Source: Candidatus Dadabacteria bacterium (lineage in GTDB: Bacteria > Desulfobacterota_D > UBA1144 > Nemesobacterales > JADFKM01). Taken from it: a DNA stretch of 29,491 nucleotides. Under the pieces are notes generated by a model. That model saw nothing but the letters and a program-made list of their open reading frames with translations. It made no database searches and was not told the DNA's origin. Shown here piece after piece: positions 1 through 14,496 of the stretch (position 1 is its first letter; the number at the start of each line of letters is the position of its first letter). The DNA lies in contig JADFKM010000006.1 of assembly GCA_022564935.1 (NCBI GenBank), positions 1 through 29,491 of the forward strand, given 5' to 3'. The position numbers and the translations under genes are program-made.

Positions 1-238
1 CCGAAGCCCGCGCCCGATCTAAATCGGCGGCGGCGAACGCTTCGTCGGGCCAGCCCGCCCGGCGGCAGGCGCCGCGCGCGCGCTCGAGCGACAGATCGGC
101 CACCGCCATGATGTGAAGCCCCGGCGTCCGGCGGGCCTGGGCGAGAAACATGGCGCCGAACTTGCCGGCGCCGATGAGCCCGACGCGGACGGGGTTGTCC
201 GCCTCCTCACGTGCGCGGAGTTGGGTGTAGAGACTCAC
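1..238 (-). CDS. NAD(P)-dependent oxidoreductase, 5' fragment (3' end beyond window)
   Basis: The minus strand is open from a GTG at 238 to the window edge, giving 79 codons. The translation starts VSLYTQLRAREEA and then has a Rossmann nucleotide-binding loop, VGLIGAGKFGAMF at about residues 19-31, followed by an acidic second strand (AVADL). The beginning resembles homoserine-dehydrogenase-like NAD(P) oxidoreductases that carry a C-terminal SAF domain, but only the dinucleotide-binding part is visible, so the substrate cannot be named. Base composition matches the neighbouring sdh genes. It lies downstream of sdhB on the same strand after about 158 bases and may be a separate unit. An ATG 30 codons further in is too late, because it would remove the binding loop. 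Confidence 0.7.
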   Translation of the reverse strand, partial: MSLYTQLRAREEADNPVRVGLIGAGKFGAMFLAQARRTPGLHIMAVADLSLERARGACRRAGWPDEAFAAADLDRARAS

Positions 239-396
239 GGGCGGAGAACCTGCTGTTCCTGGGTCATTGCCTTTCTAGATTAGCAAGCCGCTCCGCCGAT
301 CGCCAGCAGGCGCCGCTCCGGGTCCCAGCAGAACACAGCACAATGGGCGGCGAGTCCGGCCAGCCGCCCTTCCGCCCCCCCGCCGCGCCGCGCCTA

Positions 397-1176
397 TCAC
401 ATACGGCGCTCGACCAACATCTTCTTGATCCCGGCGATCGCCTTGGCCGGGTTTAGGTCCTTGGGGCAGGTGCGGGTGCAGTTCATGATGGTGTGGCAGC
501 GGTAGAGCCGGAACGGGTCCTCGAGCTCGTCGAGCCGCTCGCCGGTGTGCTCGTCGCGGCTGTCGACCAGCCAGCGGTACGCCTGCAACAGAACCGCCGG
601 GCCCAGGTAGCGTTCGCTGTTCCACCAGTAGCTCGGGCAGCTCGTCGAGCAGCAGGCGCAGAGGATGCATTCATACAGCCCGTCGAGCTTGGCGCGGTCA
701 TCCTTCGACTGCAGCCGCTCCTTGTCGGGCGGCGGCGTCTGGCTCTGGAGCCACGGCTTGATCGAGGCGTATTGGGCGTAAAAGTTGGTCATGTCGGGCA
801 CCAGGTCCTTGATCACCGGCATGTGGGGCAGCGGATAGACCGCGACGTCGCCCTTGGTGTCGTCGATCGGCTGGGTGCAGGCGAGGGTGTTGGTGCCGTC
901 GATGTTCATCGCGCAGGAGCCGCAGATTCCCTCGCGGCACGAGCGCCGGAAGGTGAGCGTCGCGTCGACCTCGTTCTTGATCTTGATCAGCGCATCGAGG
1001 ACCATCGGCCCGCACGCATCGCGGTCGATCTCGTAGGTGTCGACCCTGGGGTTGTCGCCCGAATCGGGCTCCCAGCGGTAGACCTTGAAGCGCTTCACGT
1101 TGGTCGCGCCGGCGGGCGCCGGATGCGCCTTGCCGGGGCCGATCTTGGAGTTGGCGGGCAGCATGAACTCGGCCAT
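397..1176 (-). CDS. sdhB: Succinate dehydrogenase iron-sulfur subunit SdhB
   Basis: This is the electron-transfer subunit of complex II: it passes electrons from the SdhA flavin through three Fe-S clusters to ubiquinone at the membrane anchor. The 259-residue protein has the normal length. The 2Fe-2S ligands are C80, C85, C88 and C100 (motif CREGICGSC). A second set, [12 protein letters not shown] (170-181), and a third, [13 protein letters not shown] (227-239), bind the 4Fe-4S and 3Fe-4S clusters. The ATG at 1176 has a strong GGAGGAG ribosome-binding site a few bases upstream. It is the last gene of the order sdhC-sdhD-sdhA-sdhB, 33 bases after the sdhA stop. The sequence is of the alphaproteobacterial/mitochondrial type. 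Confidence 0.97.
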
Positions 1177-1209
1177 GTCTCCTCCTCGGAGCTGAACCGG
1201 CGGGCGGCC

Positions 1210-3009
1210 CTAGTACACCCGCGCCTTCGGCGGGAACACCTCGACCTCGTCGGTCAGCGTGTAGAGATGCACGGGCCGGTAGTCGATGCGCACCTTGCCG
1301 TCGTCGCCGACCCAGGCCAGCGTGTGTTTCATCCAGTTCTCGTCGTCGCGGTCGGGGTAGTCCTCGCGGGCGTGCCCGCCGCGGCTCTCGGTGCGGTTGC
1401 TCGCCGAGTTGATCGTCACCACCGCCTGCCTGAGCAGGTTGTCGAGCTCGAGCGTCTCGACGAGGTCCGAGTTCCACACCATCGAACGGTCGGAGACGCG
1501 CACGTCGTCGAACGACTTGTAAATCTCGTCGAGCTTGGCCACGCCCTCGCCGAGGATCTCGCCGGTGCGGAAGACCGCGCAATTGGCCTGCATCGCGCGC
1601 TGCATGGTGAGGCGAATCTCGGCGGTCGGGCTTCCGCCGCTGGCGTTGCGCAGCGCGTCGAGCCGGTCGAGCGCCGCCTCTCCGGCACCGTTGCCGAGCG
1701 GCTTGTGCGACGCGCCGGGGGTGACGATCTCGGCGGCGCGCAGCGCCGCGGCGCGGCCGAACACGACGATGTCGAGGAGCGAGTTCGAGCCCAGCCGGTT
1801 GGCGCCGTGGACCGAGACGCAGGCCGCCTCGCCGATCGCCATCAGCCCGGGCACCACCGCGTCCGGGTCGCCGTCTTTGAGCGTCACCACCTCGCCGTGG
1901 TAGTTGGTCGGGATGCCGCCCATGTTGTAGTGCACCGTCGGGATCACCGGGATCGGCTCCGCGGTGACGTCGACGCCGGCGAAGATCCTGGCCGATTCCG
2001 AGATTCCCGGCAGCCGCTCCTCGAGGAGCTCGGCGCCGAGGTGCTCGAGGTGCAGGTGGATATGGTCCTTCTCGGGCCCGACCCCGCGGCCGTCGCGAAT
2101 CTCCAGCGTCATCGCCCGGCTCACCACGTCGCGCGAGGCGAGGTCCTTGGCGGTGGGCGCGTAGCGCACCATGAAGCGCTCGTTCTCCGAATTGGTGAGG
2201 TAGCCGCCCTCGCCGCGCGATCCTTCGGTGATCAGGCAGCCCGAGCCGTAGATGCCGGTGGGATGGAACTGCACGAACTCCATGTCCTGGCATGGAAGCC
2301 CGGCGCGCAACGCCATGGCGTTGCCGTCGCCGGTGCAGGTGTGCGCCGAGGTGCACGAGAAGTACGTGCGGCCGTAACCGCCGGTCGCCAGCACCACCAT
2401 GTGGGCGCGGAAGCGGTGGATGGCGCCGTCGTCCATGTTCCACGCCATCACCCCGCGGCACGCGCCGTCCGCGTCCATGATCAGGTCGAGCGCGAAATAC
2501 TCGATGAAGAACTCGGCGTCGTGCTTGAGCGACTGCTGATAGAGCGTGTGCAGGATGGCGTGGCCGGTGCGGTCGGCGGCGGCGCAGGTGCGCATCGCCT
2601 GGCCCTTGCCGTAATGCGTGCTCATGCCGCCGAAGGCGCGCTGGTAGATGTGTCCGTCCTCGGTGCGCGAGAACGGCACGCCGTAGTGCTCGAGCTCGAT
2701 CACCGCCTGCGCCGCCTCGCGGCACATGTACTCGATGGCGTCCTGGTCGCCGAGCCAGTCCGAGCCCTTGACCGTGTCGTACATGTGCCAGCGCCAGTCG
2801 TCCTCGCCCATGTTGCCGAGCGCCGCGCTCATGCCGCCCTGGGCGGCGACGGTGTGGCTGCGAGTCGGGAACACCTTGGTCAGGCACGCGGTCTTGAGCC
2901 CCTGCTCGGCCAGGCCGAAGGTGGCGCGCAGGCCGGCGCCGCCGGCGCCGACGACGACGACGTCGTAGCTGTGCTCGGTGATCGGATACGCCTGGGTCAC
3001 GGCGCTCAT
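1210..3009 (-). CDS. sdhA: Succinate dehydrogenase flavoprotein subunit SdhA
   Basis: This subunit oxidises succinate to fumarate in the TCA cycle with covalently bound FAD on the cytoplasmic face. The 599-residue protein starts [16 protein letters not shown]. It shows the FAD dinucleotide fold GAGGAG (21-26), the flavin-linking histidine in SHTVAAQGG (H52), the QFHPTGIYG block, the active-site TEGSRGEGG loop and the HYNMGGIPT segment. The frame is open further upstream, but the ATG at 3009 overlaps the sdhD stop as ATGA. That coupling, and the homologous start MSAV, support this start. The gene is complete, with no missing catalytic residue seen. It belongs to the sdhCDAB operon on the GC-rich part of the window. 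Confidence 0.97.
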
Positions 3010-3386
3010 CCCCCGAACGCGAGCTTGAGCACGGCGAACACGCACGCTGTGCCGAGCGCGAAGCTGCCCAGCAAGACCAGCAGCACCGAGCCGGTCTTGA
3101 CGCCTTCGTGGTGGATGTAGTCCTCGATTACCACCTGCATGCCGAGCTTCATGTGATAGAAGCCGGCGACGATGAACAGGAGCATGATCACGGCGACCAG
3201 CGGATTGCCCATCAACGCGACGGCGCGGGCGTGGTCGGCCCCGATCATGAGAAAGACGAAGACGACGAAGAGAAACGTCAACGGCACCAGAGCGACCGCG
3301 GTGAGCCGCTGGGCCCAAAAATGACCGGTTCCCTCCTTGGCGGCGCCGAGCCCGCGGACCCGGCCGAGCGGCGTGCGCAGGCTCAT
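3006..3386 (-). CDS. sdhD: Succinate dehydrogenase membrane anchor subunit SdhD
   Basis: This small membrane subunit, with SdhC, holds heme b and the ubiquinone site of complex II. The 126 residues contain three hydrophobic segments (about 32-50, 59-78 and 98-120). The N-terminal part [11 protein letters not shown] carries the conserved Arg, and [15 protein letters not shown] supplies the histidine region typical of heme/quinone binding in this family. The start at 3386 lies one base after the sdhC stop, and the stop overlaps the sdhA ATG by four bases, so the three genes are translationally coupled. The assignment rests on position and motif, because these anchor subunits are weakly conserved in sequence. 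Confidence 0.92.
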
Positions 3387-3387
3387 G

Positions 3388-3777
3388 TCAGCCCCCGATT
3401 CCCAGTCCGATCATCCAGGCGACGACGGTGAGCGTCACCGAGGCGGCGAGCATCGCCCAGCCCGAGCGGTAGACGTCCTCGATCTCGAAGCCGTATCCCA
3501 GGTCCCACACCAGGTGCCTGACGCCGTTGCACAGGTGATAGAACAGGCACGCCGAGAAGCCGAACAGGACGAGATAGCCGAACCACGAGCCGTAGAACGC
3601 CTGGGTGGTCTGATAAGCGCCGGGCCCGATGGCGGCGGCGATCAGCCACCAGGTGAGGAACAGCGTGCCGACGGCGAGGCCGACCCCGGTAAGGCGGTGG
3701 AAGATCGAGAGAACCGACGTGAGCTGCGGCTTGTAGATTTGGAGGTGCGGTGACAGAGGCCGCTGCGACTGGGCCAT
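3388..3777 (-). CDS. sdhC: Succinate dehydrogenase cytochrome b556 subunit SdhC
   Basis: This is the first gene of the sdh operon and encodes the larger membrane anchor of complex II. The chosen start gives MAQSQRPLSPHLQIYKPQ, the family's characteristic opening. The PQLTSVLSIFHRLTG block follows, and a conserved heme-ligand region SACLFYHLCNGVRHLVWD lies near residues 74-91. There are three membrane segments. Length is 129 residues, which is normal. An upstream in-frame ATG at 3798 would add seven residues, but GGAG lies eight bases before 3777 and supports the shorter form. Nothing upstream on this strand is coupled to it, so the operon promoter should lie between here and 3892. Confidence 0.94.
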   Translation of the reverse strand: MAQSQRPLSPHLQIYKPQLTSVLSIFHRLTGVGLAVGTLFLTWWLIAAAIGPGAYQTTQAFYGSWFGYLVLFGFSACLFYHLCNGVRHLVWDLGYGFEIEDVYRSGWAMLAASVTLTVVAWMIGLGIGG

Positions 3778-3891
3778 TTTATTGTTCTCCGGACACACAC
3801 CGCGCGCCCCCCGGATGGCGCGCGCGAAGCCATTGTAAGGCGTTGTCCCGGCGAGTCAATCGCGTGCCTTGCGCGACGCCGCCCGGCGGAA

Positions 3892-4380
3892 TCATTGGTA
3901 CAGCCCGTGGCGGCGGTGCCAGTCCTCGATCGATTCGCCCGGGTACTCGGGGAAGTGGCTGTCGCGGCCGGTCTCGGGCGCCTCGGCCCAGGGCGCCCTG
4001 GAGTCGAGCATGATGTGGACGCGCTCGGGCGGCACGGGCAACGGCGTGTCGATCGCCGAGGCGAAGGGGTGAACGAGCTCGGGCCAGCCCGGGTCGGCGA
4101 CCCACAGCGCGCTGCCGCAGACCCGGCAGAAATGACGCCGCGCCGGGCTCAACCCCTGCTCGTCGCCGGCTTCGGCCGGGAGCCGGACGCGATAGACGCT
4201 AACGTTGTCCTCACCTTCGACGGCGAGCGTCCCGGCGTCGCCCATGATGTTGATCGCGTAGCCGCCGCCGCCCGCGGTCTTGCGGCAGATCGAGCAGTAG
4301 CAGCGCATAAAGGGGTACGGCGTCCGCGATTCGACCGCGAACCGCACCGCGCCGCAGTGGCAAGAGCCTTCGAGCTTCAT
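3892..4380 (-). CDS. GFA-family (glutathione-dependent formaldehyde-activating-like) zinc protein
   Basis: The 162-residue protein opens MKLEGSCHCGAVRF. It carries the GFA-family zinc-binding pattern: SCHCG near the N-terminus, RCYCSICRK about 20 residues later, and FCRVCGSALW in the middle. Members of this family fold like the formaldehyde-activating enzyme Gfa and bind two zinc ions, but most, including probably this one, have no proven substrate. The frame continues 108 codons upstream without a plausible protein. The ATG at 4380 has GGAGG about seven bases upstream and is clearly the start. It lies upstream of sdhC on the same strand with about 115 bases between and is probably transcribed separately. 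Confidence 0.85.
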   Translation of the reverse strand: MKLEGSCHCGAVRFAVESRTPYPFMRCYCSICRKTAGGGGYAINIMGDAGTLAVEGEDNVSVYRVRLPAEAGDEQGLSPARRHFCRVCGSALWVADPGWPELVHPFASAIDTPLPVPPERVHIMLDSRAPWAEAPETGRDSHFPEYPGESIEDWHRRHGLYQ

Positions 4381-4445
4381 CGCTTGACCTCCACTGCTTG
4401 GGACCGGGGAGCGCCTATCCCCGCCTCGGCTGCGGCCGGCGGGCG

Positions 4446-5335
4446 TCAGCCGTCGTCGCCGAACTTTATGCCCTGCGCCAGCGGCAGCTCGTTCGAGTAG
4501 TTGATCGTGTTGGTGGCGCGCCGCATGTAGCTCTTCCACGCGTCCGAGCCCGATTCGCGGCCGCCGCCGGTGTCCTTCTCGCCGCCGAACGCGCCGCCGA
4601 TCTCGGCTCCGCTCGGCCCGATGTTGACGTTGACGATGCCGCAGTCCGAGCCGACGCCCGAGGTGAACGTCTCGGCCTCGCGCAGGTCGGTGGTGAAGAT
4701 GCACGACGCCAACCCCTGGGGCACGCCGTTGTGGATGCGAATCGCGCCGTCGAGGTCGCGGTACTTCATGGCGTAGAGGATCGGGGCGAAGGTTTCCTCG
4801 CGCACGGTCCCGGTCTGGCCGGGCATCTCGACGATCGCGGGCGTGACGTAGTAGGCGTCGGGCAGCTCGCCGGCGAGCACCCGCTCGCCGCCGAACACCG
4901 CGCCGCCCTCGCCCGCGACCGTCTCCAGCGTCGCCTGCATCTTATCGTATGCCGCCTCGCGGATCAGCGGGCCGATCAGCGTGCCGGGATCGAGCGGATC
5001 GCCGACCGCGACCGAGGCATAGGCCGATTTCAGCCGCGGCAGCAGCGCGTCGTAGACGTCCTCGTGGACGATCAGGCGCCTGAGCGAGGTGCAGCGCTGG
5101 CCCGCCGTGCCGACGGCGGCGAACAGGATGGCGCGCTCGGCGAGGTCGAGGTCGGCCGAGGGCGCGACGATCATGCCGTTGTTGCCGCCGAGCTCCAGGA
5201 GCGAGCGGCCGAGCCGGGCCGCCACCCGGGCGCCGACCGCGCGGCCCATGGCGCAGCTCCCCGTCGCGCTGATCAGCGGCACGCGCGCATCGTCGACGAG
5301 CGCCTCGCCGGCCTCCTTGCCGCCGACGACGATCT
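4446..5335 (-). pseudogene. Aldehyde dehydrogenase (aminoadipate-semialdehyde / ALDH7 type), C-terminal part only
   Basis: This is the last roughly 295 residues of an NAD-dependent aldehyde dehydrogenase of the ALDH7A1/AmaB group (alpha-aminoadipate semialdehyde or piperideine-6-carboxylate oxidation in lysine breakdown). The sequence contains LISATGS, the catalytic-site glutamate in LELGGNN, the catalytic cysteine in GTAGQRCTSLRRL, the REETFAPILY block and the family-specific C-terminal end TNTINYS. The N-terminal about 200 residues, including much of the NAD-binding fold, are absent. In their place the frame runs straight into a CBS-domain protein at about 5,335. Composition here is GC-rich like the sdh genes. 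The missing half is best explained by a sequence junction rather than by evolution of a fusion protein. Confidence 0.88.
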
Positions 5336-5355
5336 GCAGGAGGTCGTCGAGGGTG
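5320..5355. other. Probable chimeric junction between two genomes
   Basis: Within about 35 bases the sequence changes from very GC-rich, ALDH-coding DNA to moderate-GC, CBS-coding DNA, with both halves in the same minus-strand frame. The family patterns on either side meet around the residues LDDLLQIVVGG. 'LDDLL' fits the end of a CBS domain, and 'QIVVGGKEAGEAL' fits the ALDH segment just before its SATGS motif. A short shared stretch such as CTCCTGCAG could have served as overlap. I see no transposase, tRNA or attachment site at the boundary. Confidence 0.8.
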
Positions 5356-5702
5356 ATTATGCCCGAGAGGTGCCCGTTCTTATCCACTATGGGCACGCGC
5401 CTAATGCCGTTTTCGTCTATGACCTTTAGAAGCTCCGCTGCCCTGGTGTCTTCATTGGCGGTGATAAGCTCACCGGTCATGACTTCCCTAACTTTCGTCT
5501 TGGCCACATCCAGCCCGTCCGCCACGACTCTAACGGTGATGTCTCTGTCGGTAATTATACCGATGGGCCTTTTATTCTCCACGATGACAACGCTTCCGAC
5601 CATCTTTTCCCTCATCAGCATCGCAGCCGTCTTCACCGAATCGCCAGGGCCGGTGGAAATGACCGTCTTCTTCTCTATCTTCCTAAGCGTAGTCTTCGGC
5701 AT
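5336..5702 (-). CDS. CBS-domain protein (N-terminal about 122 residues; 3' end lost at the junction)
   Basis: The protein begins MPKTTLRKIEKKTVIS and shows two CBS repeats. The first covers about residues 10-60, ending IGIITDRDIT. The second covers about 72-123, ending SGIITLDDLL. CBS pairs usually bind adenine nucleotides and regulate a partner, and stand-alone two-CBS proteins of about 140 residues are common. The frame then changes identity into an aldehyde dehydrogenase, so the true C-terminus, probably a few to 25 residues, is not present. The ATG at 5702 overlaps the TAA of the upstream flavin oxidoreductase by one base (TAATG), with AAAGGAGG just upstream. The two are therefore translationally coupled, and the CBS protein might sense nucleotide state for that enzyme; this is inference. 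Confidence 0.88.
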
Positions 5703-9088: not shown

Positions 9089-10264
9089 TTACCGTGAGCC
9101 GAACGACGTCTTATAGTCGTAGGTTATGCAGGGATAGAATTCATCCGACGGCTGTTTTTTGCAGTCCTCAACTAAATCGAGCAAATCGCTGAGCGACTCA
9201 TACTCATAGTAAGGGGTAATAGCTACCCTGAACCCTTTTTCATCGATAAATTTCCCATACTTGTCGATCCTTGACCTTGTGTAAGGATAGGCCCGCTGGA
9301 TAAACTCAGCCAGCTTCGCGTTGACATAATTGTCCGCCAGCTGGTCGAAGGGGCCGTCCCAGTAGTTGTTTCTCCGAACGTTGCGCGCCCATATGCCGAT
9401 AAGGATCTTCCTGCGCTCTTTCTTATTCACATAGAACGCAAAGCCGCTCAAAGCGTCGTAGACGATTTCCCCGGAGAGGGGCTTCATAACTCCCGGCATC
9501 CCTTGCTCCTCGTTCAAAATCCACATAAAATGTGAATGCTTCTTGTCGAAAATGAGGAAGAACCGGTAGCCGGACTCGTCGAATGTTTTAGCCGAGAGCT
9601 CTTCGTCATTTCTCAGTTTGAAAAGCCTTGGAGGGTCTTGCCCGATATCATTTAAATTGAAGATCACACTCTTGCCCCTGTAAGTCGCCTTATACCGCAG
9701 AGCAGAAAGCTCGTTGAGGGCAACCCCGTCTACGGCGCCAAACTCTTTATGCCATGTGGGAGACTCATCCGGGCTCTTGGGGTCGTCGATATATTCGTAG
9801 TAGACGAAGTTAAGCGCGCCACTTTTCCGCTCTTCGACGCCCAATCGAATATTGCCCCAGAACCACCTGCCGGTTGAATAGAAAGAGAAATAGTAATAGT
9901 TCTCCGTCGGGTATACGTAGACCTGTTCGGGCAGGGAGAAAAACACATAGACGAACACGGCGTCCACATCGTTGACATTCAGATTGGAGTATAGGGACTC
10001 AATGAACTTCTGGTTTGTGTACAGGGTCTTGCTTTCAGCGGCTAAGGGACTCCGCCGTCCTTCCCGCTCGGGCTCTACCCCCTCGCCCACTACGACACCC
10101 GAGAGGTAGTTGTCGCCGCCGGTGCCCGCGTCCTCATACCCTCTCTTTTCGGCGGTCTCAACAGGGCCATTGTTCTGAACCGACCTCGTGACGCACCCGA
10201 AAGATATCAAACCGACGAGCAAAACAACGGCAACCGAAACCGGTTTTCTCAAATCCAAACACAT
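9089..10264 (-). CDS. Predicted lipoprotein of unknown function, partner of the His-Trp repeat protein
   Basis: This 391-residue protein starts MCLDLRKPVSVAVVLLVGLI and reaches a cysteine in SFGC at residue 24, an imperfect but plausible lipobox. The mature part is soluble and rich in aromatic residues. It has a Tyr/Phe-rich block (YVYPTENYYYFSFYSTGRWF at about 115-134) that looks like beta structure and a C-terminal part with several predicted helices. The C-terminal region has two cysteines (VEDCKKQ, FYPCITY) that could form a disulphide in the periplasm. I do not recognise the family. It begins 37 bases after the stop of the repeat protein on the same strand, so the two probably form one transcript. 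No clear ribosome-binding site precedes the ATG at 10264, suggesting coupling or a slightly different start. Confidence 0.72.
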   Translation of the reverse strand: MCLDLRKPVSVAVVLLVGLISFGCVTRSVQNNGPVETAEKRGYEDAGTGGDNYLSGVVVGEGVEPEREGRRSPLAAESKTLYTNQKFIESLYSNLNVNDVDAVFVYVFFSLPEQVYVYPTENYYYFSFYSTGRWFWGNIRLGVEERKSGALNFVYYEYIDDPKSPDESPTWHKEFGAVDGVALNELSALRYKATYRGKSVIFNLNDIGQDPPRLFKLRNDEELSAKTFDESGYRFFLIFDKKHSHFMWILNEEQGMPGVMKPLSGEIVYDALSGFAFYVNKKERRKILIGIWARNVRRNNYWDGPFDQLADNYVNAKLAEFIQRAYPYTRSRIDKYGKFIDEKGFRVAITPYYEYESLSDLLDLVEDCKKQPSDEFYPCITYDYKTSFGSR

Positions 10265-10301: not shown

Positions 10302-11984
10302 TTACCACTTACTGCTCTCCGAGTAGCTGTGACCTTCGCCGTTCCATCGCTTTGTTGTATTGAAGTTATGTCTCTCCCTTTTCCACCTCCTGGATTCCGT
10401 GTAGCCGTGCTCGTCGCCTCTCCACGACCTGGTCAATGCCTGCCTGTGTCTGTCCTCACCCCACTGTTTGCTTGTCTCTTCGTCGTGCTCGTAGCCTTTC
10501 AATGATTTACTCTCAGAATGTTTCTTAGCCTTCCACTTTCCGGACTCCTCAAATTCGTGCCCGTACCCTTTCCACTTCTTGGTCGTCTCGTAAGCATGTT
10601 TTTTCGGCTTCCTGCGCTCCCACTTCCTAGACTCCTGATAGTCGTGGCCGTCGCCGCGCCATTCCTTCGAATTCCTTATGCTATGCCCGTGTCTGTCCCA
10701 CCTCGACGTAACAGCCTCGTCGTGGTTTGTATGAACCCATTTCTTAGACTGAGTGTATTTATGCCCATTCCATTTTCTGCTGCGCTCGAACTCATGACCT
10801 TCGCTGTCCCATTTCTGAGTTTTCGATTCGCTGTGTTTTTCTTTATCCCAGCTCCGAGATTTTGCGTCTTCGTGTTCTCCCGGCACCTTGTCTTTAACGC
10901 TCCGAGCAAGACGATGCCTCGGCCCCCACTTCCCGGATCCCTCAAATTCGTGCCCTTTGCTCTTCCACTTTTTGGTCGTCGCATATTTGTGCGCAACTGC
11001 GCCGGCCTGTACCTGCACGAGTATATTGAATGAGCCCGTTTGGACGCCGAGCAGAGTACGCTCGAACGAATATATGCCCTCCGTCCCGACATCTCCGGGG
11101 GCTATGGAGATGGTCTGAGCATTGCCGCCTTCCATGTTTACCACCTCAGGCGTTTCGTTGTAAAGGTTAAGCATCACTGGCTCGGTGATACCCTCAAGCC
11201 CAGAAACGTTGACGCCCAACGTGGTTTCTTCACCCCTTAGGAGCTTCGTTTTCGGTGCCGAAAGCCTGACCCGCAGGTTGTGCATCGTTCCCGACACCGT
11301 GACGTCACCCTCCGTAAGCTTAATCGTAGTAGGCCCGACCACGTCCTTCGGACTCAAGACGACCGTCTTCCGTGGGGACTCGGCAAGAATATCTACTTCT
11401 TCCCCCCCTATCTCCACTCCGGTCGTGTCGAAGTCCCCGTCGAAAGGCCCCTCGATCTCGACCGGTCTTCCGGGCTGGCCAACTGTCGGAAGATGGAAGT
11501 CGTCTTCCGTTGGAACGGGAGGGCGCTCTATGGCGGGAGGAGTTGGATTAACCGGAACCATTGTGCTCGCCAGCTTCTTGCCCTTGCTGTCCCGCAGTAT
11601 GAGCGACACAACGCCCCCGGCTATTGTTACGGGAACTGCAATCTTGAGGATTTTCCCGGAAACGGCGGTCTTCTTTTTTTCAACCTCGATCACATAGCCG
11701 TTAAGCTCGTCCTCGTTGCGCTGCCACTCCCGCTCGTTCTCGCCGAAGGGCTCCGCCACGACCGTTCCCGAAAGCGTGTCCCCCGCCGCCATGTCATCGG
11801 GAAGGTTCACCTTTACATTTCCGTGAGGAGTTCTGAAGGTGGCCGTATGAAGCCCCCACGACGTGTCGGTACGTGCAGAGAACCCCTTCTTGGCTAAAGC
11901 GCCTGCCGGAAGAGCGGTCGCGCTTACTATTAAAAAGACGACCGTTAAACCCAAATGAATGCAAAAACTTCTTCTTAAACCCAT
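10302..11984 (-). CDS. Secreted protein with Ig-like region and 18 tandem His-x7-Trp repeats
   Basis: The 560-residue protein has a Sec signal (MGLRRSF followed by about 20 hydrophobic residues, ending near ALPAGALA). A first domain (about 35-110) includes FRTPHGNVKVNLPDDMAAGD and LNGYVIEV, a pattern I associate with envelope proteins. A hydrophobic segment follows at about 112-130, then a proline-rich linker and beta-rich Ig/TIG-like domains (about 165-325). The C-terminal 233 residues are 18 short units, mostly 13 residues long, with consensus x4-H-x-[F/Y]-x2-[S/T]-x-[K/R]-W. The His-to-Trp distance is eight positions in all 16 units that end in Trp, and the protein ends exactly on the last Trp. 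The region is rich in Lys, Arg, Glu and His. GGGAG lies about eight bases before the ATG. The function is unknown; metal, polysaccharide or surface binding are guesses. Confidence 0.85.
   Translation of the reverse strand: MGLRRSFCIHLGLTVVFLIVSATALPAGALAKKGFSARTDTSWGLHTATFRTPHGNVKVNLPDDMAAGDTLSGTVVAEPFGENEREWQRNEDELNGYVIEVEKKKTAVSGKILKIAVPVTIAGGVVSLILRDSKGKKLASTMVPVNPTPPAIERPPVPTEDDFHLPTVGQPGRPVEIEGPFDGDFDTTGVEIGGEEVDILAESPRKTVVLSPKDVVGPTTIKLTEGDVTVSGTMHNLRVRLSAPKTKLLRGEETTLGVNVSGLEGITEPVMLNLYNETPEVVNMEGGNAQTISIAPGDVGTEGIYSFERTLLGVQTGSFNILVQVQAGAVAHKYATTKKWKSKGHEFEGSGKWGPRHRLARSVKDKVPGEHEDAKSRSWDKEKHSESKTQKWDSEGHEFERSRKWNGHKYTQSKKWVHTNHDEAVTSRWDRHGHSIRNSKEWRGDGHDYQESRKWERRKPKKHAYETTKKWKGYGHEFEESGKWKAKKHSESKSLKGYEHDEETSKQWGEDRHRQALTRSWRGDEHGYTESRRWKRERHNFNTTKRWNGEGHSYSESSKW
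10305..11003 (-). repeat. Coding tandem repeat, about 39-bp period, 18 units
   Basis: These positions encode residues 328-560 of the secreted protein. Thirteen units are exactly 13 codons in length; the others are 11, 12, 12 and 16 codons, plus one unit of 13 (the third) that lacks the Trp. All length changes are whole codons and fall between a Trp and the next His, never between His and Trp. DNA copies are diverged, so the array is old and selected at the protein level rather than a recent slippage product. Units such as GHEFEESGKW and GHEFEGSGKW recur several units apart, which suggests duplication of larger blocks. Confidence 0.85.
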
Positions 11985-12191: not shown

Positions 12192-13078
12192 CTAGCCCAC
12201 CGGGCCGTAGTCTTCCATCGATGTGAACAGTGCGGGGTCGCGCTTGTAGCCCATGATCTCTTCGAGGGTGCAAAACTGGTTCACGCCCGTGCTGATCTCG
12301 ACGTCAAAGCCCGTGAACTGGCAGGGGTGGTGGCAGCCGGCGGCGTGAGAAAGGGCCAGGAGCTCAGCCCTGAAGCTCTTCATGAACCGGGCGAACCTCG
12401 CGGTCTTGTCTTCGATGTCCAGCCCGGCCTGCATCCACCAATTCTGTGTTGTGATCCCCGTGGGGCACCAGTCGGTGTGGCACCTCATGGCCTGGACGCA
12501 GCCTATGGATATCATCGCCTCCCTAGCGATGTGGACGATGTCGCACCCCATGGCAAAGGCTACGACTGCGCGGTCGGGAAATCCCAGCTTCCCGCTCCCG
12601 ATCCACACGATGTCTCTTGACAGCCCGGCGCTCTGAAATATCTCGTACACCCTGGCGAACCCTATCTTAAAGGGCAGGGCTACGTGGTCTGCGAACGTGA
12701 GAGGAGCCGCTCCCGTGCCCCCTTGTCCTCGGCAATGGGAAACTGGGAGTGTTTGACTACCGGATAACCCACTTCATACATAAGCTCGCTGGAGCCGTAT
12801 CCTATGGTGTTATCAATACCCTTGGACGAGGTGTAAATCCAGGTGCGCTCCGAGCGGTTAAACGGAAGCTCCTCCCTGTCGTGCGCAACCCAGTACTGCC
12901 TCATCTCTGGGCCGGCCATCTCAAGCCAGTATCGAAAGTGGCCAATAATGGGGAAATTATGCTTAATCGCGTGCTTTCTCTGCAATATATCGTGAAGGGC
13001 CACGATCAATACAACCGCTATAACGGAGGTGATCAACCAATGCTCATAGAAAAAGTGGATGTGGAGAATTTCAGGCAT
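12192..13078 (-). pseudogene. FMN-binding glutamate-synthase-like protein with large internal deletion
   Basis: Two adjacent minus-strand frames encode the two ends of one protein. The first (13078 to about 12722) gives the family's N-terminus: a membrane helix, then NFPIIGHFRYWLEMAGPEMR, SKGIDNTIGYGSSELMYEVG and KHSQFPIAEDKG. The second, from about 12720 to 12192, gives GTGAAPLTFADHVALPF, then the FMN/Fe-S part WIGSGKLGFPDRAVVAFAMG, the Cys-rich SIGCVQAMRCHTDWCPTG, and the proper C-terminus. Complete family members are about 520-540 residues. Around 250 residues holding most of the TIM barrel are missing at a run of five Cs (12718-12722), and the frame is also shifted. It is therefore either a pseudogene or an assembly deletion. 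The N-terminal piece would end after 132 residues (at 12680) with a foreign tail. Confidence 0.85.
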
Positions 13079-13380: not shown

Positions 13381-14496
13381 CTAAGCGAGCACCTCGTCGG
13401 CAGGGGCCGGTCTGCCGAAGTAAAAGCCCTGGGCGTAGTTAAAGCCCATTTCCAAACAGATTTCGTACTCCTCGACGCCCTCTATGCCCTCGGCCACGGT
13501 GTCGATGTCAAGGTCCTGGGCCATCTTCACGAGGCTCTTTACAAGGTGCTGAAACTTTTTCGCAGCCTTGTGGATGTTCCTGATAAGTCCGGGGTCGAAC
13601 TTGAGATAGTCGGGGGGAACCTCGATAAGCTCCTTGAAGCGCGCCTGCCCGGCGCCGAAATCATCATAGGCAAGGCCGATGTTGAGGTCGTTTAAAGCGA
13701 GCCTGAGCTGCTTCATCAGGCTAAGGTCGTACACCGATTTCTCATTTACCTCAAGGGTTATGGGCAAAGCGGGCGCAAGTTTCCGTATGTCCTTGAGCTA
13801 CTCGAGAAGCGTCATCCTGTACATCTCAACCGGATGGGTGTTCACGAACAGGTTAGGCGAGCCTTGCTTGGACTTCGCCACCCTGACGCCTTCATCACGA
13901 AATACCTGACTGAGGTCCGCCTCGAGCCCTATACACGAGGCTATGTTGAACAACTCTACGGGACTGGAAGGCAGATCTTTATAAAACGACCGGCCTAGGA
14001 CTTCGTACCCTATGATGCTCTTTGAGCTCATTTTGATTATAGGCTGGTAATAAGGAACCACCGCCTTTTTCCGGAGCATCTCTTCAAACGTGTGCATATA
14101 GGCGTCGTAACCCTTGGGGATTTCGTCTACATTCTTGTATAGAATCGTGCTCTCGCCGAGAGCGGCATCAATCACATCCTTTTTCAGAATCTGAAACTCA
14201 AGGGTTCCGAAATGGACTATGTCGCCACTTTTCAGTGCCATTTCCCTTCTGATCCTCTTGTGATTCACATATGTCCCGTTGGAGCTTTCTAGATCGCGAA
14301 TGATAAGATCAGATTCAAGGGGAACGATCTCGGCATGGCACCTGGAGATGTTTTTCGGCATCAAGGGCAGGTCGCAGTCCTTATGTCTCCCAACACGGAA
14401 AGGGAAGACCGTAATGGGCACAACCCATGTCCTGTCGTCGTTTAAGGCACCCTCTAGATACCACCCTATCGGCTGAGCATTCGGTTCGTTAGCCAT
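13381..14496 (-). pseudogene. FHA-EAL c-di-GMP phosphodiesterase-like gene interrupted by an in-frame TAG
   Basis: The first part (14496-13798, 232 residues) has an N-terminal FHA domain with GR (36-37), S51, H54 and NG (73-74), a phosphothreonine-binding signature. The start of an EAL domain follows: YYQPIIKM, GYEVLGR in place of EAL, and LFVNTHP. A TAG at 13798-13800 then stops the frame. Reading on in the same frame gives LKDIRKLAPALPITLEVNEKS, DDFGAGQARF, LKFDPGL, AEGIEG and QGFYFGRPAP, the rest of a well-conserved EAL domain, for 138 more residues. The domain hydrolyses cyclic di-GMP in intact relatives. Without readthrough the product lacks the DDF, K and QGF active-site elements and would be inactive. 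A single C-to-T change (CAG to TAG) would explain it. Confidence 0.85.

Follow-up and report, generated by a model that had tools for sequence, protein, structure and literature searches.

A secreted H-x4-[ST]-x2-W repeat protein and its conserved neighbour: an apparently undescribed two-gene system in bacteria and archaea

Curli offer one of the nearest parallels to the locus described here, strictly as an analogy of how such a system might work: CsgA and CsgB combine a secreted repeat protein with a partner that carries a few like repeats, as do most Phycisphaerales versions of the two genes, A and B, that we report below. The curlin repeat reads S-x5-Q-x-G-x2-N-x-A-x3-Q and, as in curli, each repeat of A would, we infer, supply one strand-turn element. 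However, the repeat of A is H-x4-[ST]-x2-W, with His, Ser/Thr and Trp as its fixed residues, and does not match the Pfam curlin family; again unlike curli, the core of B is large, globular and conserved, and the A-B pair also occurs in archaea. The nearest structural neighbour of the modelled A tail is the beta belt of ApoB100, likewise a long antiparallel sheet (VIA Z 14.0, rmsd 4.5, 203 residues), but at 5% identity, with a low-confidence model and no sequence relation, probably only the arrangement is shared. Finally, dockerin-bearing surface proteins of Planctomycetota resemble A of Phycisphaerales, which likewise has dockerin or EF-hand segments before its array (Pfam matches in 5/5 proteins tested, Dockerin_1 in four). 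Neither the array nor B is part of those systems, however, and the A studied here has no dockerin.

The first-pass annotation of this DNA recognised no named family in the repeat, and this holds across the collections that we searched. Neither protein A (P0001) nor 12 repeat regions matched Pfam at E<=1 (MORN, WG, CW_binding, curlin and others); P0001 matched nothing in NCBIfam or PHROGs, and NCBIfam gave one weak serine-rich match in a single one of the 12 regions. For B, Pfam gave no match by sequence, the copy from our locus had none in NCBIfam or PHROGs, a PADLOC scan returned none, and NCBIfam searches with 11 B members gave two stray weak matches, both in one of the eleven. PDB sequences include no relative of A or of B. 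Among the matches listed from open-licence PMC articles, which cover the literature in part, nothing was pertinent to the repeat or to B. Together, A and B are apparently an undescribed two-gene system.

The window, by which we mean the whole stretch of 29,491 nucleotides analysed, is the first 29.5 kb of the 51.9-kb contig JADFKM010000006.1 from a draft genome (1.99 Mb) of Candidatus Dadabacteria. The features under discussion are as follows.

10302..11984, minus strand: gene A, an ORF for the secreted repeat protein P0001 (560 aa), with no Pfam, NCBIfam, PHROG or PDB match
11892..11984, minus strand: predicted signal peptide of A, aa 1-31, MGLRRSFCIHLGLTVVFLIVSATALPAGALA, assigned by eye from the sequence
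10995..11891, minus strand: N-terminal region of A, aa 32-330, lineage-specific, with homologues in the order
within 10995..11891, minus strand: TIG-like part of A, aa ~170-240, a weak assignment from homologue L015 (TIG, E=7.7e-4)
within 10995..11891, minus strand: BatD-like beta domain of A, aa ~241-330, a weak assignment from homologue L002 (BatD, E=1.5e-3)
10305..10991, minus strand: repeat tail of A, aa 332-560, 18 units of H-x4-[ST]-x2-W with linkers mostly of 4, from spacing counts, HMM and model
9089..10264, minus strand: gene B, a probable lipoprotein of 391 aa and partner of A, 37 bp past the A stop, with homologues beside every true array
9095..9982, minus strand: conserved core of B, aa 95-390, with YPTExYYY, GNxR, DESG, DGPFDQ and YPY motifs, residues invariant over 28 homologues, and pLDDT mostly 80-97

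Elsewhere in the window, GC content falls at about position 5300, from ~0.73-0.78 over positions 1-5300 to 0.52-0.58. The drop lies inside an ORF (4446-5702) in which CBS domains are linked to an aldehyde dehydrogenase reduced to its C-terminal two thirds. It probably marks either a chimeric junction between two genomes or an insertion of recent date, in which case the SDH genes at 397-3798 would be foreign. A probable glutamate synthase-like gene at 12192-13078 is split, with the C-part of PF01645 in 12192-12650 and an ORF without Pfam match at 12680-13078, and an FHA-EAL gene at 13381-14496 is apparently interrupted within EAL, whose beginning shares an ORF with FHA while the remainder lies in the next ORF.

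The repeat tail of protein A

The tail contains 20 His, 18 of which head a unit, and 16 Trp, every one of them exactly eight positions after a His; counts at every other His-to-Trp distance are one at most. Across 20,000 composition shuffles of the tail, no distance collected more than eight such pairs (mean 3.4). The 18-unit His-x7-Trp repeat of the first-pass annotation, with Trp at +8 in 16 of 18 units, is therefore real. Its interval, 10305-11003, begins 12 bases ahead of the first unit and is otherwise exact, and it was right that length varies only between one Trp and the next His, a linker mostly of 4 residues. We also count its ten units with Tyr or Phe at +2, among the 16 that end in Trp. 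Where it saw Ser/Thr at +5 in most units, it had the right residue but put the case too weakly and overlooked a third fixed position: all 16 Trp-ending units and both degenerate ones have it. Because Ser/Thr occurs at +5 in all 18, we write the unit as H-x4-[ST]-x2-W.

An exact DNA-pattern scan of 84,980 prokaryote species genomes, which made no use of the neighbouring gene B, was run with the unnamed pattern W-P-x-x-H-x4-S-x2-W; as it required W-P linkers, arrays like that of the window would be missed elsewhere. It returned 46 stretches. Genuine in-frame arrays came from ten genomes, belonging to Phycisphaerales and other Planctomycetota, Candidatus Andersenbacteria (CPR) and two archaea, one of the Pacearchaeota and one from a different phylum, and the remainder were repetitive DNA in spurious frames. 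The usual unit in these genomes is H-x4-S-x2-W-P-x-[NDG], with period 12, and its H, S and W stand in the same register as in the window tail. Among 275 units outside the window, Trp is at +8 in 240, and position +5 is Ser in 257 and Thr in 18, Ser/Thr there being demanded by the search motif. Only H, S/T and W are nearly fixed. The first-pass annotation had suggested a function from Lys and Glu content. This is not supported: charge is peculiar to the window copy, with K+R at 25% of its repeat versus 1-10% in relatives.

An HMM built from three-unit pieces of the arrays in other phyla, with the window excluded, scores the window tail at 61.8 bits. None of 500 shuffles that preserved His and Trp reached this score (maximum 24.9), free shuffles reached 9.9 at most, and the best other ORF among 305 scored 4.1 bits. 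The repeat thus has homologous arrays in other phyla, a check that had been proposed from the sequence alone; copy number, which was to be compared too, varies, with 8-17 units in the relatives. Among 57 genomes of the window's own phylum, a search with the tail found its own genome only.

Several candidate matches were rejected. In viral contigs, the H-x7-W pattern hit junk frames only and the WP pattern a single junk frame, and none of 110 viral-DNA pattern matches had the window-like form (linker of 4, without Pro). Plasmid matches in Cupriavidus (E=5e-4) are translated DNA repeats rather than A-like genes: large plasmids there (L016, L017, L018) have arrays of a ~39 bp DNA repeat whose translation mimics H-x7-W. 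On plasmids, an artificial WP consensus picked up other kinds of repeat only. No relative of B was found in viral contigs, nor B on plasmids, and phages yielded neither A nor B.

What structure might the tail adopt? The best of five models has one beta strand per unit and a turn in the linker between Trp and His, with mean pLDDT of 60.5 (75-79 mid-region); the other four are poor (mean 25.9-50.9). The structures nearest to the best model have antiparallel sheets, either flat or closed into barrels (Z 14 for the ApoB belt, about 10 for porins), which would indicate a long beta meander and nothing more specific. Independently of any model, large hydrophobic residues favour +2/+4, the strand face shared with H0 and W8, over +1/+3, both in units outside the window (270/550 versus 126/550, p=1e-19) and in the window tail (13/32 versus 0/32, p=5e-5). 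This alternation is as expected of strands, and the linkers are rich in P, N, G and D, as expected of turns. A ladder with one strand per unit seems the best interpretation of the A tail. The unit is structural, as first proposed, although the best model, at low confidence, has a meander with a single strand per unit in place of the suggested hairpin or solenoid turn. We also considered an outer-membrane beta barrel, given the porin matches, and dropped it because arrays also occur in archaea and CPR, where this membrane is absent, and because the strands are too polar. The last tail strand, HSYSESSKW, has polar residues at -3 and -5 and is not an amphipathic C-terminal strand of the barrel type.

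Might the tail instead be a low-complexity disordered extension, and its likeness to other arrays convergence on a short motif? It is charge-rich, four of its five models are poor, and the Cupriavidus plasmid repeat illustrates how translated junk DNA can mimic H-x7-W. Convergence, however, would hardly yield an HMM score that no His/Trp-preserving shuffle attains, and is contradicted by the partner gene, which adjoins in every case; we consider this reading very improbable.

The N-terminal part of A, about 300 beta-rich residues, has, by sequence comparison, a history separate from that of the tail. It has homologues in 14 of 43 genomes of the order, the window's own included, most of them continuing into a disordered segment and then a SPOR-like terminus (by eye) and one into a carboxypeptidase-regulatory-like end; the repeat tail is absent from all those in other genomes. 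In the closest (G031, 58% identity), similarity ends where the repeat starts, there are no repeats, and the B gene was not found in that genome. Repeats therefore co-occur with B rather than with the N-terminus of A, which is interchangeable: TIG-like in the window, dockerin/EF-hand in Phycisphaerales, and a membrane anchor (by eye) in archaea and CPR. As a separate observation, the secreted proteins that share this N-terminal region (L003-L014), many with a SPOR-like terminal domain, are present in ~1/3 of the order's genomes, and their C-terminus is swapped among lineages.

A conserved partner gene

The first-pass annotation drew attention to the repeat gene and overlooked the gene directly downstream of it, which is the stronger evidence for a system. 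A homologue of B is present in 10/10 scan genomes and adjoins an array in each; as the scan was blind to B, this independently confirms that the window A belongs with these arrays. No other neighbour recurs across loci. Conversely, a B-profile search found B in 4/392 Planctomycetota, 13/251 genomes of the Phycisphaerales-type order, 1/379 Patescibacteria, and 4/371 and 1/87 genomes of two archaeal phyla, where each count includes the seed genome and samples hold one genome per species. Of 22 pairs, 19 have A immediately upstream of B in the same orientation (gap -298 to 60), L258 and L275 have them on opposite strands, and L297 is a natural A-B fusion. Over the full alignment, the window B shares 25-38% identity with ten homologues; its best tblastn match is from Andersenbacteria (43% identity, E=5e-69), and strong matches are confined to true-array loci among all loci compared. 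A weak match in G029 (E=1.7e-4) is a different protein that does not match the B profile. B is thus a genetically linked, conserved and obligate-looking partner of A.

Next to B at every main-branch locus is a gene with 8-17 units. Six divergent B lie outside this branch, one at a contig end and five (L333, L334, L338, L339, L340) adjoining short secreted proteins that have His/Ser/aromatic repeats of other kinds: H-x3-[ST]-x2-H heptads, for example in L334 (6 found versus 0.17 expected), or aromatic-x-P...H (3 versus 0.06), the case for a repeat being weaker by such counts in L338 and L340. The B phylogeny places the window sequence with Andersenbacteria (support 0.975), and this group next to archaeal sequences (0.998), which suggests horizontal transfer.

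B is probably a lipoprotein or otherwise membrane-anchored. Its core of ~300 residues has 18 residues invariant across 28 homologues, many of them polar, including, in bacteria and archaea alike, E121, E221, D229, S231, R285, N299, D303, D307 and R346; the window copy has all family motifs (YPxExYxY, DESG, DGPFDQ). The core is modelled with pLDDT mostly of 80-97, yet Foldseek found nothing in the PDB at E<=1e-3, the best VIA match was NlpE at Z 4.0 over 72 residues only, and viral structures gave no good match among those listed. The predicted fold has no clear PDB match, which does not prove it new.

Conservation of this kind invites the reading that B is an extracytoplasmic enzyme and A its multi-site substrate, modified, cross-linked or cleaved at the His, Ser/Thr or Trp of each unit. 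The nine residues named above, many in predicted loops, exceed what a pure adaptor would need; in A, residues between the fixed H, S/T and W vary freely; and an enzyme that recognises a motif would permit divergent B to sit beside differently spaced repeats. B matches no enzyme in fold or sequence, however, and the beta-type alternation and turn-like linkers of A suggest a structural constraint too. We therefore regard an enzyme as an unlikely, if serious, contender.

What the pair may do

Our preferred reading, which we hold tentatively and at somewhat less than an even chance, is that A and B form a surface system in which membrane-held B anchors or seeds the beta ladder of A. Imagine that each unit is one beta strand that opens with His and closes with Trp, every turn then being bracketed by a Trp and the His that follows it. 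Consecutive strands, paired antiparallel, would build a ladder that is aromatic (His/Trp) on one face and lined with Ser/Thr on the other, and B at the membrane would recognise this ladder and anchor or seed a surface fibre or scaffold. The B C-terminus in most Phycisphaerales bears 2-4 H-x4-[ST]-x2-W units of its own, as would be expected of a seeding subunit, and the surface reading is further supported by the constant adjacency in the scan genomes and by the reciprocal B search, which finds arrays. Against it, the tail model is weak, the invariant acidic, Arg, Ser and Asn residues of B would suit an enzyme equally well, two A-B pairs are on opposite strands, and the window B, like archaeal and CPR B, has no C-terminal repeats.

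Alternatively, the ladder might offer many binding sites for a metal, haem or some other ligand, with B as membrane receptor or loading factor. An invariant His in each unit, 8-17 per protein, would suit such a role, as would the His-ended heptads beside the divergent B of L333 and L334. Yet metal binding leaves the fixed Trp and Ser/Thr unexplained, and the conserved neighbourhood consists of A and B only, with no gene for metal transport or haem; we think it improbable.

Returning to the surface system, the two conserved genes represent families without a name, one a repeat of very simple grammar, the other a globular protein rich in invariant polar residues. Their small size makes direct expression and testing feasible, and the grammar offers a simple route to further members in metagenomes. 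The scatter of the pair over five or more phyla, both bacterial and archaeal, speaks for horizontal transfer and for a stand-alone function at the cell surface, in hosts that include organisms with very small genomes. Possibly, though we would sooner bet against it than for it, the pair represents a new class of prokaryotic surface polymer, in which B would seed or process an H-x4-[ST]-x2-W ladder fitted with interchangeable heads and exchanged between bacteria and archaea, CPR and small-genome archaea included.
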